This document shows positions 7,804-13,206 of a DNA stretch of 60,312 nucleotides, one piece after another. This DNA comes from Candidatus Rokuibacteriota bacterium (GTDB lineage: Bacteria > Methylomirabilota > Methylomirabilia > Rokubacteriales > CSP1-6). The stretch lies in the NCBI GenBank assembly GCA_003220315.1, contig QHSA01000132.1, positions 1 to 60,312 of the forward strand, in the 5' to 3' direction. The notes beneath the pieces are model-generated. The model worked only from the letters and a program-made list of their open reading frames with translations. It did not search any database and was not told the origin of the DNA. Position numbers and translations under genes: made by a program. How positions within the stretch are numbered: the first letter of the stretch is position 1; each line of letters opens with the position of its first letter.

Positions 7804-8142
7804 GTGACGGACTGTGTGTTCTGTCGCATCATCACCCGCGAGAGTGCCGCGGATATCGAATACGAGGACGACGCGGTCGTCGCGTTCCGCGACATCTATC
7901 CGAAGGCGCCGGTGCACCTCCTGATCGTCCCGCGGCGCCACATTCCGTCGATCATGGCGATGGAGGCGAGCGACGCCGAGGCGTTGGGTCGCTGCTTCCT
8001 CGCCGCGAAGGCGCTGGGCGAAGCGACGGGCTTCGCCGAGCGCGGCTACCGGCTCCGAGTGCACTGCGGTCCCGAGGGGGGGCAAGTCGTCTACCACGTT
8101 CACATGCACTTCCTCGCCGGCGGCCGGGGCGGCGGTGCCTAG
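7804..8142 (+). CDS. HIT-family nucleotide hydrolase
   Basis: A 112-residue histidine-triad protein of the Hint/HinT type, which hydrolyses nucleoside phosphoramidates or adenylates. DCVFCRI at the amino end has the usual Cys pair, IVPRRHIPSI is a family motif, and the triad is His98-x-His100-x-His102 (YHVHMHF). It overlaps the next gene by 8 nt, so the two are translationally coupled. The physiological substrate is not shown. Confidence 0.9.
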   Translation: MTDCVFCRIITRESAADIEYEDDAVVAFRDIYPKAPVHLLIVPRRHIPSIMAMEASDAEALGRCFLAAKALGEATGFAERGYRLRVHCGPEGGQVVYHVHMHFLAGGRGGGA

Positions 8143-9490
8143 CCACCTCATCGACTACAAGCTCTTCGGCGACCAGTTCTCGACGCCCGAGATGCGGGTG
8201 GTCTTCGACGAACGCACGATGCTCCAGCGCTGGCTCGACGTCGAAGCCGCGCTCGCCGCCGCGCAAGAGGAGCTCGGCCTGATCCCGCCGGGGACGGCCG
8301 AGGCGATTGCCCGCGCGGCGAAGGTCGAGACGCTCGACCTCGACGCCGTCGGGCGCGATCTGGCCGTGACGGCCCACCCGATCGTGCCGCTCGTCCGTGA
8401 GCTCGCGCGGCGGGCCGGGGACGCGGGGCGGTGGGTGCACTGGGGAGCGACCACGCAGGACATCATGGATACGGGCATGGTGCTCCAGCTCCGCGCGGCG
8501 CACGCGATCCTCCGCCGCGACCTCGTCGCCCTCGTGCTCGCCCTCGCCGACCTCGCCGAGAGCCATCGCGACACGGTCATGGCGGGACGCACCCACGCCC
8601 AGCAGGCGCTGCCGATCACTTTCGGCTTCAAGGTGGCGACCTGGACGGCGGAGTGCGTCCGCCAGGTCGAGCGGCTCGACGACGCGGCCCCACGCCTCTT
8701 CGTCGGTGAGCTGGGCGGCGCCGTCGGTACACTCGCCGGCTTCGGCCCGCAAGGCGAAGCCGTCCAGCGCAAGGCGCTGGAGCGTCTCGGGCTCGGCGTG
8801 CCGCCGATCGCGTGGCACGCCTCGCGCGACACGATCGCGGAGTTCGTGTCGCTGCTGGCGCTGATCGGCGGGACGCTCGCGCGTATCGCGAACGAGGTCG
8901 TCCAGCTCCAGCGCTCCGAGATCATGGAGCTCGAGGAGCCGTTCGCGCACGGCAAGGTGGGCAGCTCCACGATGCCCCACAAACGTAACCCCACCCACGC
9001 GGAGCGGATCGTCGCGATCGGTCGACTCCTCCGCGGGCTTGCCGCGACGGCGCTGGAGAGCATGGTCGCGGCGCACGAGCGTGACATGAGCGTGGGGCGC
9101 GCCGAGTGGGTGCTGGTCCCGGAGGCCGCGTGTCTGGCGGCGGCGACCGAGCACTGGTCGCTCGTCGTCGCGCGCGGGCTCCGCGTGAACGTGGGACGCA
9201 TGAAGGAGAACGTGCAGCGCCTCGGCGGGCTCCTGCTCTCCGAGGCGGTGATGCTCAAGCTGGGCGAGACGCTCGGCCGGAACGCGGCCCACGATCTCGT
9301 CTACGAGGCCGCCATGACCGCGTTCGACGGCAAGGGGAGCTTCCGCGAGCTTCTGCTCGCGGATCCCCGGATCGCGGCGGTGCTGCCGCGGGACGAGCTC
9401 GACCGGCTTCTCGATCCGGCGGCGTATACCGGGCTCGCCGGGCCCTTCGTCGATCGCGTCGTCCGGGAGGCGCGCCGCTTGAACCGCTAG
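8135..9490 (+). CDS. adenylosuccinate lyase-like enzyme (fumarase/aspartase superfamily)
   Basis: A 451-residue enzyme that would eliminate or add across a C-N or C-C bond of a succinyl-type substrate. The superfamily signature GSSTMPHKRNPTHAE carries the catalytic Ser loop, and HWGATTQDIMDT and AGRTHAQQALP are the other two conserved blocks. The amino end and length suit either PurB or the PcaB (carboxymuconate cycloisomerase) branch, and no purine or muconate genes are adjacent to decide. Its stop codon overlaps, by two bases, the stop of the convergent protease-rhodanese gene when that gene is read through its TGA. Confidence 0.8.
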   Translation: MPSHLIDYKLFGDQFSTPEMRVVFDERTMLQRWLDVEAALAAAQEELGLIPPGTAEAIARAAKVETLDLDAVGRDLAVTAHPIVPLVRELARRAGDAGRWVHWGATTQDIMDTGMVLQLRAAHAILRRDLVALVLALADLAESHRDTVMAGRTHAQQALPITFGFKVATWTAECVRQVERLDDAAPRLFVGELGGAVGTLAGFGPQGEAVQRKALERLGLGVPPIAWHASRDTIAEFVSLLALIGGTLARIANEVVQLQRSEIMELEEPFAHGKVGSSTMPHKRNPTHAERIVAIGRLLRGLAATALESMVAAHERDMSVGRAEWVLVPEAACLAAATEHWSLVVARGLRVNVGRMKENVQRLGGLLLSEAVMLKLGETLGRNAAHDLVYEAAMTAFDGKGSFRELLLADPRIAAVLPRDELDRLLDPAAYTGLAGPFVDRVVREARRLNR

Positions 9491-10983
9491 GCGGGCGAGG
9501 TCTTAGACTCGAGCGGCAGACCGGCGTTCGCCCAGCTGCCGAGGCCCCCCTTGAGGATCCTCACGTCCCTGTAGCCGAGCTCCCGGAGCTTGTGCGCCAC
9601 CCGGGCGCTGGTTGCCTCGTCGGGTCAGGTGCAGTAGGCGACGACGACGCGGGTCGGCTCGATCTTGAGCGCGGTGACGCCGGTCTCGAGCTCTCGCGGG
9701 GTGATGTGCCTCGCGTCAGGGATGCGGACCGGGCTCTTCGCGTACGTCGCGGCATCGCGCACGTCGAGGATGATCGGCCGCTCCCTCGACGTCTCGAGCA
9801 GGCGCATCACCTCCGACGGGCGGATGCGGTAGCGGTTCCGGCGCCAGTAGAACCCCCACATCCCGGCGTAGCCGCCGAGACTCAGGGCCGTCACGACCGC
9901 GGCGACGGCGGCCCACGGGAACGGCTTCGGCGGCGGGTTCTTGGCCTCGGCCGCCAGGCGGCGGACGTCGGGCAGCTCGGGGATGAGCCGGTTGGCCTCG
10001 GCGAAATGCTTCTCGGCGCGCGCGTAGTCGCCGGAGAAGTACGCGCTCAGCCCGGCGTGCCAGGCGGTGTTGAACCGGCTCGGCTCATCGAGGGGGACAT
10101 CGGCACCCTTGAGAAACTCGCGTACCGCGGCGGACGGGATGACGAAGTTGAATCCCTGGACGATGCCGCCCTCGTCGGTGCCGGCGTCCGAGACGAACGT
10201 GAGGACACCGAGAACCTCGCCGCGCGAGCTCACCGCAGGGCCGCCGCTGTTGCCCCACGCGGCCGGTGCGTCGGTCTGGATGACCGGCTGGTTCGTCACG
10301 TCCTGCTTGAACCCCGAGATCGCGCCGCTCGTCACCGACGCCTCGACCTTGGCCGACGCGTTGAGAAGCTCGTGGCTCAGCACCACACCCGGGAAGCCCA
10401 GGACGTGGAGCTTGTCGCCGATCTGGGCGTTGGCGGAATCGGCGAGCGAGAGCGTGGGCATGTCAGCGGTTTCGAGCTTGAGCAGGGCGAGGTCGCGGCC
10501 CGACATGCTCTGGCCTGTCCCAGGCGGGCTGTACTTGCTCACGGTCGGCGTCAGGCGGATGCCGTTCGAGAGGATCACCGAGATCGACGGGTCGAGCTTG
10601 ACCCTTGCGCGCGCGGCGGTCGCCGCCAGCGTCCCGGGCGGGAGCTCGCCGCACGCCTCGCGCACGGCGCGGCGCGCCTGCTGGTCGGCGACCCAGGCGG
10701 GCGGCCGGTGGGCGGGCGACACGACGTGGGCGTTGGTGATCATCCATCCGCTCGGGCTGACGAACCAGCCGGTGCCTGTTTCACGGAAGGGCGCGGGGCG
10801 AACGACCTTCTCTCCGCGCCCGCCACAGGTCACGAGGACTTCAGAGCCGACCTCCGCGACAACGAGCGCAACGGCCGGCTTCGCGCGGAGCAGGGCTTCC
10901 TGCACGGAGAACTCCGCGGCTGCCGAGGTGGCCGGAAGAAGGAGAAGGAGCGCACCCGTGAACCCAAGACGCATCTGACGCAT
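9487..10983 (-). CDS. exported trypsin-like protease fused to a rhodanese domain, candidate selenoprotein (in-frame UGA)
   Basis: Read from ATG 10983 with UGA as selenocysteine, the protein has 498 residues. It shows a signal peptide (to about Ala23), a DegP/trypsin-type protease with His86 (TNAHVV), Asp164 (GRDLALL) and Ser246 (GNSGGP), a TPR-like helical stretch (about 306-347), one membrane helix (about 358-379) and a C-terminal rhodanese domain (about 400-490). The rhodanese loop reads Tyr450-Cys451-Thr452-UGA453-Pro-Asp-Glu-Ala-Thr-Ser; relatives often have Cys at the UGA position. The 45 codons after UGA keep strong G/C in third positions and finish the fold (LKGGLGSWANAGLP). ATG 10974 is an alternative start. 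If UGA is a true stop or an error, the product is a truncated or misread version. Confidence 0.75.
9594..9627 (-). promoter_or_regulatory. UGA codon with candidate bacterial SECIS hairpin
   Basis: The UGA codon is at 9627-9625. Downstream, GCGCC (9608-9604) pairs with GGCGC (9598-9594) around the loop CGGGU (9603-9599). The loop begins 22 nt past the UGA, with 21 nt between them. The stem has 5 bp and a G is among the first two loop bases. Those are the accepted bacterial SECIS criteria, though GC-rich coding sequence can form such hairpins by chance. Confidence 0.5.
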
Positions 10984-11056: not shown

Positions 11057-11575
11057 CTACTTTAAGATTCCGATGGCGGCTTCGGCCTTCGCCTTGGCCT
11101 CAGCCATGTTGCCAGCCTTGCACGCGGCCTCGGCCTCGCGGATCAGCTTGGCGGCGTCGCCGCCACGCGGAGCCTGAACAGCCTGACCGGCACCCTGATC
11201 GCTACGTGGCGCCTGGACGTCCTGCTTGCCACGCGGGGCCTGAACGTCCTCCTTACCCCGCGGGGCCTGGACATCTTCCTTACCGCGCGGGGCCTGAACA
11301 TCCTGCTTACCCCGCGGCGCCTGGACTTCTGACTGATTGCGGGCGCCAGCAAGCGATCGTGGCGCCTGGACATCTTCCTTACCGCGCGGAGCCTGCATCT
11401 CCTGACGAGCGCCCGCCAGCGTGCGCGGCGCCTGGACATCCGGAGTCTTGGCGACCTTGGCGAACATCTCTTTCGCCTGCTGGACCTCGGTCGGGCAGGA
11501 CGACTGAGCGTCCACCGCGGGCGCCAGGGCGCCGAACACTGCCACGCTCATGATCGCTGCAAAAAGTCTTTTCAT
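11057..11575 (-). CDS. secreted VQAPR-repeat protein of unknown function
   Basis: A 172-residue protein. The signal peptide (MKRLFAAIMSVAVFGALAPAVDA) is followed by a short segment with one Cys. Nine copies of a 9-15 residue unit with the core [DE]-[VM]-Q-A-P-R follow, most continuing Gly-Lys-Glu/Gln. The alanine-rich helical tail carries a second Cys (AEAACKAG). Units of LAGAR type alternate with GK type. Its own strong terminator and a GGAGAGCG ribosome binding site point to a separately expressed transcript. I do not recognise the family; a periplasmic or surface role is inferred only from the signal peptide. Confidence 0.75.
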   Translation of the reverse strand: MKRLFAAIMSVAVFGALAPAVDAQSSCPTEVQQAKEMFAKVAKTPDVQAPRTLAGARQEMQAPRGKEDVQAPRSLAGARNQSEVQAPRGKQDVQAPRGKEDVQAPRGKEDVQAPRGKQDVQAPRSDQGAGQAVQAPRGGDAAKLIREAEAACKAGNMAEAKAKAEAAIGILK

Positions 11576-11874: not shown

Positions 11875-13206
11875 ATGTCCCCCCCGGCGCGCCTCGCGCC
11901 CGTGCTACTCGCCGTATTGCTCGGGAGCGCGTGCAGCGCCATGACCGCCTCGAGCACGTCCGACTCTGGGCGCTCGATGCCGACGCGGCGCGTCCTGGCG
12001 AACGGCACCCGGGTCGTCGTCCAGGAGTTCCATGCCAGCGACGTCGTCGCCGTCCAGCTCTGGGTTGACGTGGGCGGACGCGACGAGACGTCGCCAGAGC
12101 TCGGGCTCGCCCACTACCTCGAGCACATGCTCTTCAAAGGCACGGTGACCCGCGCTCCGGGATTCGTGGACCGCGAGGTCGAAGCTCTCGGGGGGCGGAT
12201 CAACGCGGGGACGTCGCTCGACTACACGTACTACCACGCCCTGCTTCCCCCGCCGCGCACGGTCGCCGCCATCGAGATGCTCAGCGACATAAGCGTGAAC
12301 TCGACGCTCAGCGAGGAGACGCTCGACCTCGAGAAGCGCGTCGTCCTCGAGGAGATGCGGCTCGGCGAGGACAACCCGCGTCGCCACCTCTCCCTTCGGC
12401 TCTACGAGCTCCTCTTCGACGGCCACCCCTACGGTCGACCGGTGATCGGCACCCGGGAGATCATCCAAGGGCTCTCGCGGGAAACGCTTGTCGCCTTCTA
12501 CCGGAGGCACTACGTTCCCGAGTCCTTCGTGCTGGTCGTCGTGGGACCCGTCGTGCCGTCGGCGGTGCTGGCGGCGGCCGAGCGCACGCTTGGCCGGCTG
12601 CCCCGCAGCGGGCTCAAGCGGCTTCCGCTGCCGGCGCCCGCCGCCGTGCGCTCGAAGCGGCTCGAGGTCGAGCGGCCGGGGACGCAGGCCTATCTGGGCA
12701 TGGCATGGCTCGGCCCGAAGCTCGATCACGCCGACACGCCGGTGGTGGACTTGCTTATGTCGATCCTCGGCCAGTCGCGATCGTCGCGGCTGCCGCAGAC
12801 GCTTCGCGAGAGGCTCGGCCTCGTCAGCTCCGTGACCGCGGGCTACTCGCCCCTCGAGGCTGCCGGCGCCGTCACCATCACGGCGCAGCTCGAGCCGGCG
12901 AACCTGGCACGCGCCGAGGCGCAGATCCTGGCGGAGCTCCAGCGCGTGCGTGAGCATGGCGTGACCGACGCGGAGCTCAGGCGGGCCGTGACCGCGGCCG
13001 AGGCGCGTGACGCCTTCTCGACCGAGACCGCGGAGGGCCGTGCCTACGCGTTCGGGCGCGCGGAGACGATCTGGCGCCTCGAGGAGGAGCTCGCGTACGT
13101 CGATCGCCTGCGTTCGGTCACGCCAGACCAGATCCGCTCGGCGGCTCGCCGCTATCTCGATCCCGAGCGCTACGATCGAGTGGCGTTCCTGCCGCCCACG
13201 CGATGA
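11875..13206 (+). CDS. M16 zinc metallopeptidase, catalytic subunit, probable lipoprotein
   Basis: A 443-residue insulinase/processing-peptidase-like protein. The inverted zinc motif His80-Tyr-Leu-Glu83-His84 is intact, with the third ligand expected in EEMRLGEDNP. A hydrophobic amino end followed by GSAC (Cys20) suggests an exported lipoprotein. ATG 11875 was chosen because it opens that signal; earlier in-frame starts add a non-hydrophobic lead of 57 residues. The stop overlaps the start of the second M16 gene (ATGA), as in two-subunit bacterial M16B enzymes. Confidence 0.85.
   Translation: MSPPARLAPVLLAVLLGSACSAMTASSTSDSGRSMPTRRVLANGTRVVVQEFHASDVVAVQLWVDVGGRDETSPELGLAHYLEHMLFKGTVTRAPGFVDREVEALGGRINAGTSLDYTYYHALLPPPRTVAAIEMLSDISVNSTLSEETLDLEKRVVLEEMRLGEDNPRRHLSLRLYELLFDGHPYGRPVIGTREIIQGLSRETLVAFYRRHYVPESFVLVVVGPVVPSAVLAAAERTLGRLPRSGLKRLPLPAPAAVRSKRLEVERPGTQAYLGMAWLGPKLDHADTPVVDLLMSILGQSRSSRLPQTLRERLGLVSSVTAGYSPLEAAGAVTITAQLEPANLARAEAQILAELQRVREHGVTDAELRRAVTAAEARDAFSTETAEGRAYAFGRAETIWRLEEELAYVDRLRSVTPDQIRSAARRYLDPERYDRVAFLPPTR

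Follow-up and report, generated by a model that had tools for sequence, protein, structure and literature searches.

A predicted Cys-x-Sec rhodanese fused to an HtrA-like protease and a membrane helix in Candidatus Rokuibacteriota

We have identified a gene in a Candidatus Rokuibacteriota genome in which an in-frame UGA codon, at 9627-9625 on the minus strand, is almost certainly decoded as selenocysteine (Sec), judging from its conservation, its downstream hairpin and the gene content of the genome. Positions refer to the window, that is, the whole stretch of 60,312 nucleotides that was analyzed. Taken as a whole, the best explanation is a selenoprotein with a protease outside the cytoplasm and a cytoplasmic rhodanese carrying a Cys-Sec pair, to which we assign a probability of about 0.88. 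The features of the locus are listed in Table 1.

Table 1. Predicted features of the selenoprotein gene and its surroundings, with further Cys-x-Sec UGA codons of the same genome
Feature	Position	Strand	Basis or remark
Whole predicted selenoprotein gene	9487..10983	-	498 aa; frame conserved in orthologues
Probable signal peptide MRQMRLGFTGALLLLLPATSAAA	10912..10983	-	Read from sequence; orthologue N-termini similarly hydrophobic
Trypsin_2/HtrA-like serine protease domain	10204..10776	-	Pfam PF13365, E=2e-23; Foldseek DegS/DegQ/HtrA1
TPR-like helical segment	9940..10077	-	Model helices 303-316, 320-333, 338-348; HemY_N weak, below cut-off
Predicted single transmembrane helix	9835..9915	-	27-residue model helix 357-383, then RRNRYRIR (positive-inside)
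Rhodanese domain, complete only with UGA read-through	9490..9834	-	Pfam PF00581
Cys451 of the Cys-Thr-Sec motif	9631..9633	-	Invariant in 40-member alignment
Predicted Sec453 UGA codon	9625..9627	-	TGA in 47/70 homologues
Candidate bSECIS hairpin	9594..9608	-	5-bp stem GCGCC/GGCGC, loop CGGGU; all 5 pairs in 47/47 TGA copies
Small secreted VQAPR-repeat protein gene	11057..11575	-	Directly upstream of selenoprotein gene, conserved there
Further Cys-x-Sec UGA codons	contig C266 (L217) 2453, 2831; contig C280 (L218) 2310	+	CTUPNEA twice, CAUPAEA once

Under translation table 11, the gene runs from an ATG at 10983 (with a second ATG at 10974) to the TGA, which follows directly on Ala-Tyr-Cys-Thr, as the initial annotation had placed it. 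Past the UGA, the frame stays open for 45 further codons, 42 of them with G or C in the third position, and ends at a TAG (9489-9487 (-)) that shares 2 nt with the TAG (9488-9490) closing the convergent lyase gene, 8135-9490 (+). The G/C-rich continuation and the overlap of convergent stops had both been described before, and both hold. A stop-free run of 45 codons has a chance of about 62% at the local composition, and we therefore dropped the open frame beyond the UGA as evidence. What rises above chance is conservation, namely the TGA in homologues, the hairpin beside it and the suppression of amino-acid change downstream.

A match to the protein was found in every one of the 57 genomes of the taxonomic family that were searched, although some matches are not full-length; the named relatives are metagenome assemblies of Candidatus Rokubacteria/Rokuibacteriota. 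Among the best 70 homologues fetched from this family, the codon at the Sec site is TGA in 47, Ser in 19 (AGC, AGT or TCG), Thr in 2, Cys in 1 (TGC, L071), Glu in 1 (GAA, L050) and Trp in none. Apart from the TGA itself, the frame in nearly all TGA copies is free of stops between the protease domain and a point at least 42 codons beyond the TGA, the exceptions being a copy with a frame break upstream (L097) and another that reaches the contig end (L072). Four TGA copies, with the motif CDU, and one Cys copy (L214) come from a second family of the class, which is more distant. The in-frame UGA thus alternates with Cys and with other residues in homologues. The initial annotation had looked to Cys as the usual alternative; Cys does occur (L071, L214), but it is rare, and Ser is usual within the family. 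On the tree, the Sec label requires six changes, and the Ser, Cys, Thr and Glu replacements lie in separate places. In the gapless part downstream of the UGA, on which these values rest, dN is 0.02-0.09 against a dS of 0.24-0.71; on this comparison of sequences, purifying selection acts on the 45 codons beyond the UGA. The alignment of homologues that had been proposed as a check therefore shows relatives with the same UGA and with conserved sequence beyond it.

One clade unites most of the Ser and Thr copies, and these are longer at the C-terminus by about 180 residues; in the sole copy scanned, the Ser paralogue L080, the added part is a cNMP_binding domain (Pfam). The window's genome holds one Sec copy (C65) and one Ser copy (C72; L080/L222), and the latter has no hairpin. 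Sec is dispensable for the fold, given this whole clade of Ser paralogues and the Glu copy L050. At the Sec codon of the latter (L050/L121), GAA is two substitutions away from TGA while the hairpin is intact, suggesting either that Sec was lost not long ago or that the assembly is involved.

The loop of the candidate SECIS hairpin begins after a spacer of 21 nt from the UGA. Published rules for bacterial SECIS elements (bSECIS) give a loop of 3-9 nt, a stem of 4-16 bp, an MFE of at most -7.5, a G at loop position 1 or 2 with G or U next to it on the 3' side, and a distance of 16-37 nt from the UGA (PMC13188914). With its loop CGGGU, 5 bp and 21 nt, the hairpin lies within these rules, and the MFE of the 21-nt core ranges from -9.0 to -13.3 kcal/mol across the 47 TGA copies. 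All of these copies form the pairs GCGCC/GGCGC at +20 to +34, with the loop pattern [CA]G[GU][GA]U. The hairpin named in the initial annotation was accordingly correct in position and distance, and it is intact throughout the TGA copies. Of 119 conserved four- or six-fold columns, whose median is 63%, just 4 hold a single codon throughout, and these are the stem codons +6, +7, +9 and +10. At the Arg codon +8, in the loop, CGC does not occur, even though it is the most frequent codon for Arg in these genes (0.48); the loop rule G[G/U] accounts for the missing C ending. On the other hand, stem pairing in 21 non-TGA copies is 56%, equal to the shuffle level, compared with 100% in the TGA copies; the hairpin is lost in nearly all non-TGA copies, with the Glu copy L050 as the exception. 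Base covariation was considered as the main evidence for the hairpin and set aside as weak, because the stem is nearly invariant; preference was given to the silent-site lock and to the control with non-TGA copies. The one compensated pair was found in another Sec rhodanese of the same genome, which keeps the hairpin. An Rfam search for a SECIS family gave nothing meaningful.

These observations bear on whether the UGA is a true stop, left by a Cys-to-stop mutation or a base error, in which case the gene would encode a 452-residue protease with a truncated rhodanese. Table 11 does end the frame at the UGA, and the shorter product would keep the whole protease and the membrane helix. However, the TGA is shared at this codon by 47 homologues, with a dN/dS beyond it that is far under 1, the truncated rhodanese falls under the Pfam cut-off, and a silent-site lock on exactly the hairpin codons would have no reason. 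Neither a mutation nor a base error, which the initial annotation had held to be the main alternative, explains a codon and a hairpin shared by 47 copies. Conservation strongly disfavors a true stop, and we regard it as very improbable.

The window's genome, which is 98% complete, carries the machinery for selenocysteine insertion that the initial annotation had proposed to look for. A tRNA-Sec was found with Infernal (69.8 bits) and also with ARAGORN (anticodon TCA), and the genome also has selA (582.8 bits), selB (364.9 bits) and selD (337.5 bits). One contig (C281) carries tRNA-Sec, selA and selB in a row. An ORF resembling a membrane or secreted protein begins right after the tRNA-Sec gene (L001 955-1488 (-)). 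The selD gene (L223/L018, contig C231) has an in-frame TGA of its own within the motif CAG-U-ASK, and the SelD of this genome is probably itself a selenoprotein. Across the taxonomic family, selB scores above the cut-off in 50 of the 57 genomes. In the same genome, every one of the three further Cys-x-Sec rhodanese UGA codons (Table 1) has a SECIS-like hairpin.

The UGA could also be read through otherwise, by insertion of Trp or Cys or by leaky termination. The base after the UGA is C here, and UGA codons in that setting are commonly regarded as leaky. Against this stand the dedicated set of tRNA-Sec, SelA, SelB and SelD, the fit of the hairpin to the bSECIS rules and the lack of Trp at the site in homologues. 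In addition, UGA is the ordinary stop of other genes in the window, such as both M16 peptidase genes, which end at 13206 and 14513, indicating that the genetic code of the host is unchanged. We consider such a read-through highly improbable, and decoding as selenocysteine remains the reading that we prefer.

The predicted selenoprotein combines a Trypsin_2 domain, in which the triad His86, Asp164 and Ser246 is invariant, with a rhodanese fold. For the PDZ domain, by which membership in HtrA was judged, Pfam gave no match in the protein. With read-through, the rhodanese domain reaches 45.5 bits in Pfam, whereas without it the score is 19.0 bits, under the cut-off of 22.2. AlphaFold models the whole protein with a pLDDT of 86.7 and the rhodanese domain with a pTM of 0.82, and the read-through part makes up one strand and two helices, the one that follows the active-site loop and the final one. 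Foldseek aligns the domain with solved rhodaneses at TM 0.7-0.8. The earlier statement that the continuation completes the rhodanese fold is thus borne out by Pfam, AlphaFold and Foldseek alike. A search of a viral structure library returned viral trypsin-like proteases only, and a search of a phage collection gave weak matches to the protease part only.

Based on the probable signal peptide and on the helix 357-383 followed by RRNRYRIR, the protease is probably periplasmic and the rhodanese probably lies at the membrane on its cytoplasmic side. A cytoplasmic rhodanese also fits the cyclic-nucleotide domain found in the Ser paralogue. The initial annotation had put the rhodanese outside the cytoplasm or at the membrane; the membrane location stands, but the face is probably the cytoplasmic one.

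In the rhodanese active site, Cys451 does not vary over the 40-member alignment while position 453 does, and the model strand stops just before Cys451. Both observations speak for Cys451 being the classical persulfide Cys, which would place Sec two positions after it. Sequence alignments to solved rhodaneses are split, in that some set position 453 and others Cys451 on the catalytic Cys. A Cys and a Sec so close together could form a selenenylsulfide.

We propose that SelB with Sec-tRNA, bound to the hairpin at 9608-9594, would insert selenocysteine at the UGA, yielding a product of 498 residues whose complete C-terminal rhodanese would hold Cys451-Thr-Sec453 in the active-site loop. The signal peptide would export the HtrA-like protease to the periplasm, and the membrane helix would leave the rhodanese in the cytoplasm. 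The Cys-Sec pair may then act as a fast redox or sulfane-sulfur (persulfide or selenenylsulfide) switch, its state being linked through the membrane to the protease. That the Cys-Sec rhodanese regulates the periplasmic protease in this way is a tentative proposal, somewhat short of an even chance. A cNMP_binding domain placed after the rhodanese in the Ser paralogue suits a regulatory, cytoplasmic C-terminal half. It is also conceivable that the selenoprotein has a rhodanese that works as an enzyme, in membrane-tethered persulfide or selenium transfer or as a thiol oxidoreductase, and has no regulatory effect on the protease. The other Cys-x-Sec rhodaneses of the genome (C266, C280) are separate genes, indicating that such a rhodanese has a role of its own. 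However, the fusion is retained in most genomes of the family, and the ligand-sensing domain added in the Ser paralogue points to regulation. We hold this enzymatic role, too, to be possible at somewhat less than even odds.

Directly upstream of the selenoprotein gene, the small VQAPR-repeat protein has a match in 28 of the fetched loci. It gave no Pfam match, and no literature hit was obtained on the motif. Its repeats are short and end in QAPR, QSPR or QASR, their number varies widely between genomes (the window; L102-L167), and the ends of the protein are conserved and Cys-bearing. Repeats of this kind, each ending in Arg, could serve as units for cleavage by a protease. Conservation near the selenoprotein gene extends to two M16 peptidases and a HIT-family gene, and the Ser paralogues have none of the VQAPR, M16 and HIT-family neighbors. 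These conserved neighbors hint at a role in envelope proteolysis. In its fullest form, the proposal would be a transmembrane device in which the Cys-Sec rhodanese senses the redox, sulfane-sulfur or selenium state and switches the protease, possibly on the VQAPR-repeat protein, with a sister that has Ser and a cyclic-nucleotide sensor; this remains speculative, and we rate it as unlikely in all its parts.

Several known systems resemble parts of the predicted selenoprotein. The rhodanese of E. coli YgaP is held at the membrane. Its domain has a similar fold according to Foldseek, and PDB titles describe it as S-nitrosylated or S-sulfhydrated, but YgaP has neither a protease nor Sec. HtrA, DegS and DegQ share the protease fold and the His/Asp/Ser triad, and DegS is likewise a membrane-anchored periplasmic protein; in contrast to these, the selenoprotein has no PDZ match and has instead a rhodanese at its C-terminus, probably in the cytoplasm. 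Predictions of Cys-x-Sec rhodaneses go back to 2005, and the NCBI model NF041203 represents them (PMC13188914, PMC9312934). This model (rhodanese_LYCAU, rhodanese-like selenoprotein form 3, CxU) has the same fold with Cys-x-Sec in the active-site loop, as in the Cys451-Thr-Sec453 motif described here, and it matches our rhodanese domain at 7.7e-21 and 74.1 bits, below its curated cut-off of 115, so that under NCBI's rule the domain does not belong to the family. Unlike its members, the rhodanese here comes after an HtrA-like protease and a membrane helix. No NCBIfam model reached its cut-off on the selenoprotein. TsoB, a rhodanese/DsbD fusion-like selenoprotein (NF045694), is likewise a fused rhodanese selenoprotein, but it has two Sec (UxxxxU) and a DsbD-like partner, and its match here is 18 bits against a cut-off of 805. 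Serine protease selenoproteins were likewise predicted from UGA codons in the GOS survey, as a trypsin-like serine protease and a MucD-like protein; in these, Sec is placed within the trypsin domain or, for the MucD-like protein, in a CxxU motif, and not in a rhodanese (PMC2398784).

A fusion of protease, membrane helix and Cys-x-Sec rhodanese was not found in the selenoprotein catalogues compared, among which the families of Haft and Tolstoy 2025 (PMC12013261) were taken as tabulated in PMC13188914. A Methylomirabilota genome with 63 predicted selenoproteins is cited in PMC13188914, and members of the protease fusion may already be in that list. The predicted protein adds an architecture to the selenoproteins, and the fusion is present in most genomes of an uncultured lineage of soil and groundwater, in which standard gene calling would truncate it. 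The pair of Sec and Ser paralogues, one of them with a cyclic-nucleotide domain, offers a natural comparison for the benefit of Sec in a rhodanese. Furthermore, silent-site locking over a SECIS element can back recoding from metagenome assemblies alone. On the 5' side of the Sec codon, the codons GTC, GCC and ACC at -5, -4 and -1 (9628-9642 (-)) are also nearly locked in TGA copies, with ACC at codon -1 in TGA copies versus ACG in Ser copies, and this suggests a preferred sequence context ahead of the Sec codon.
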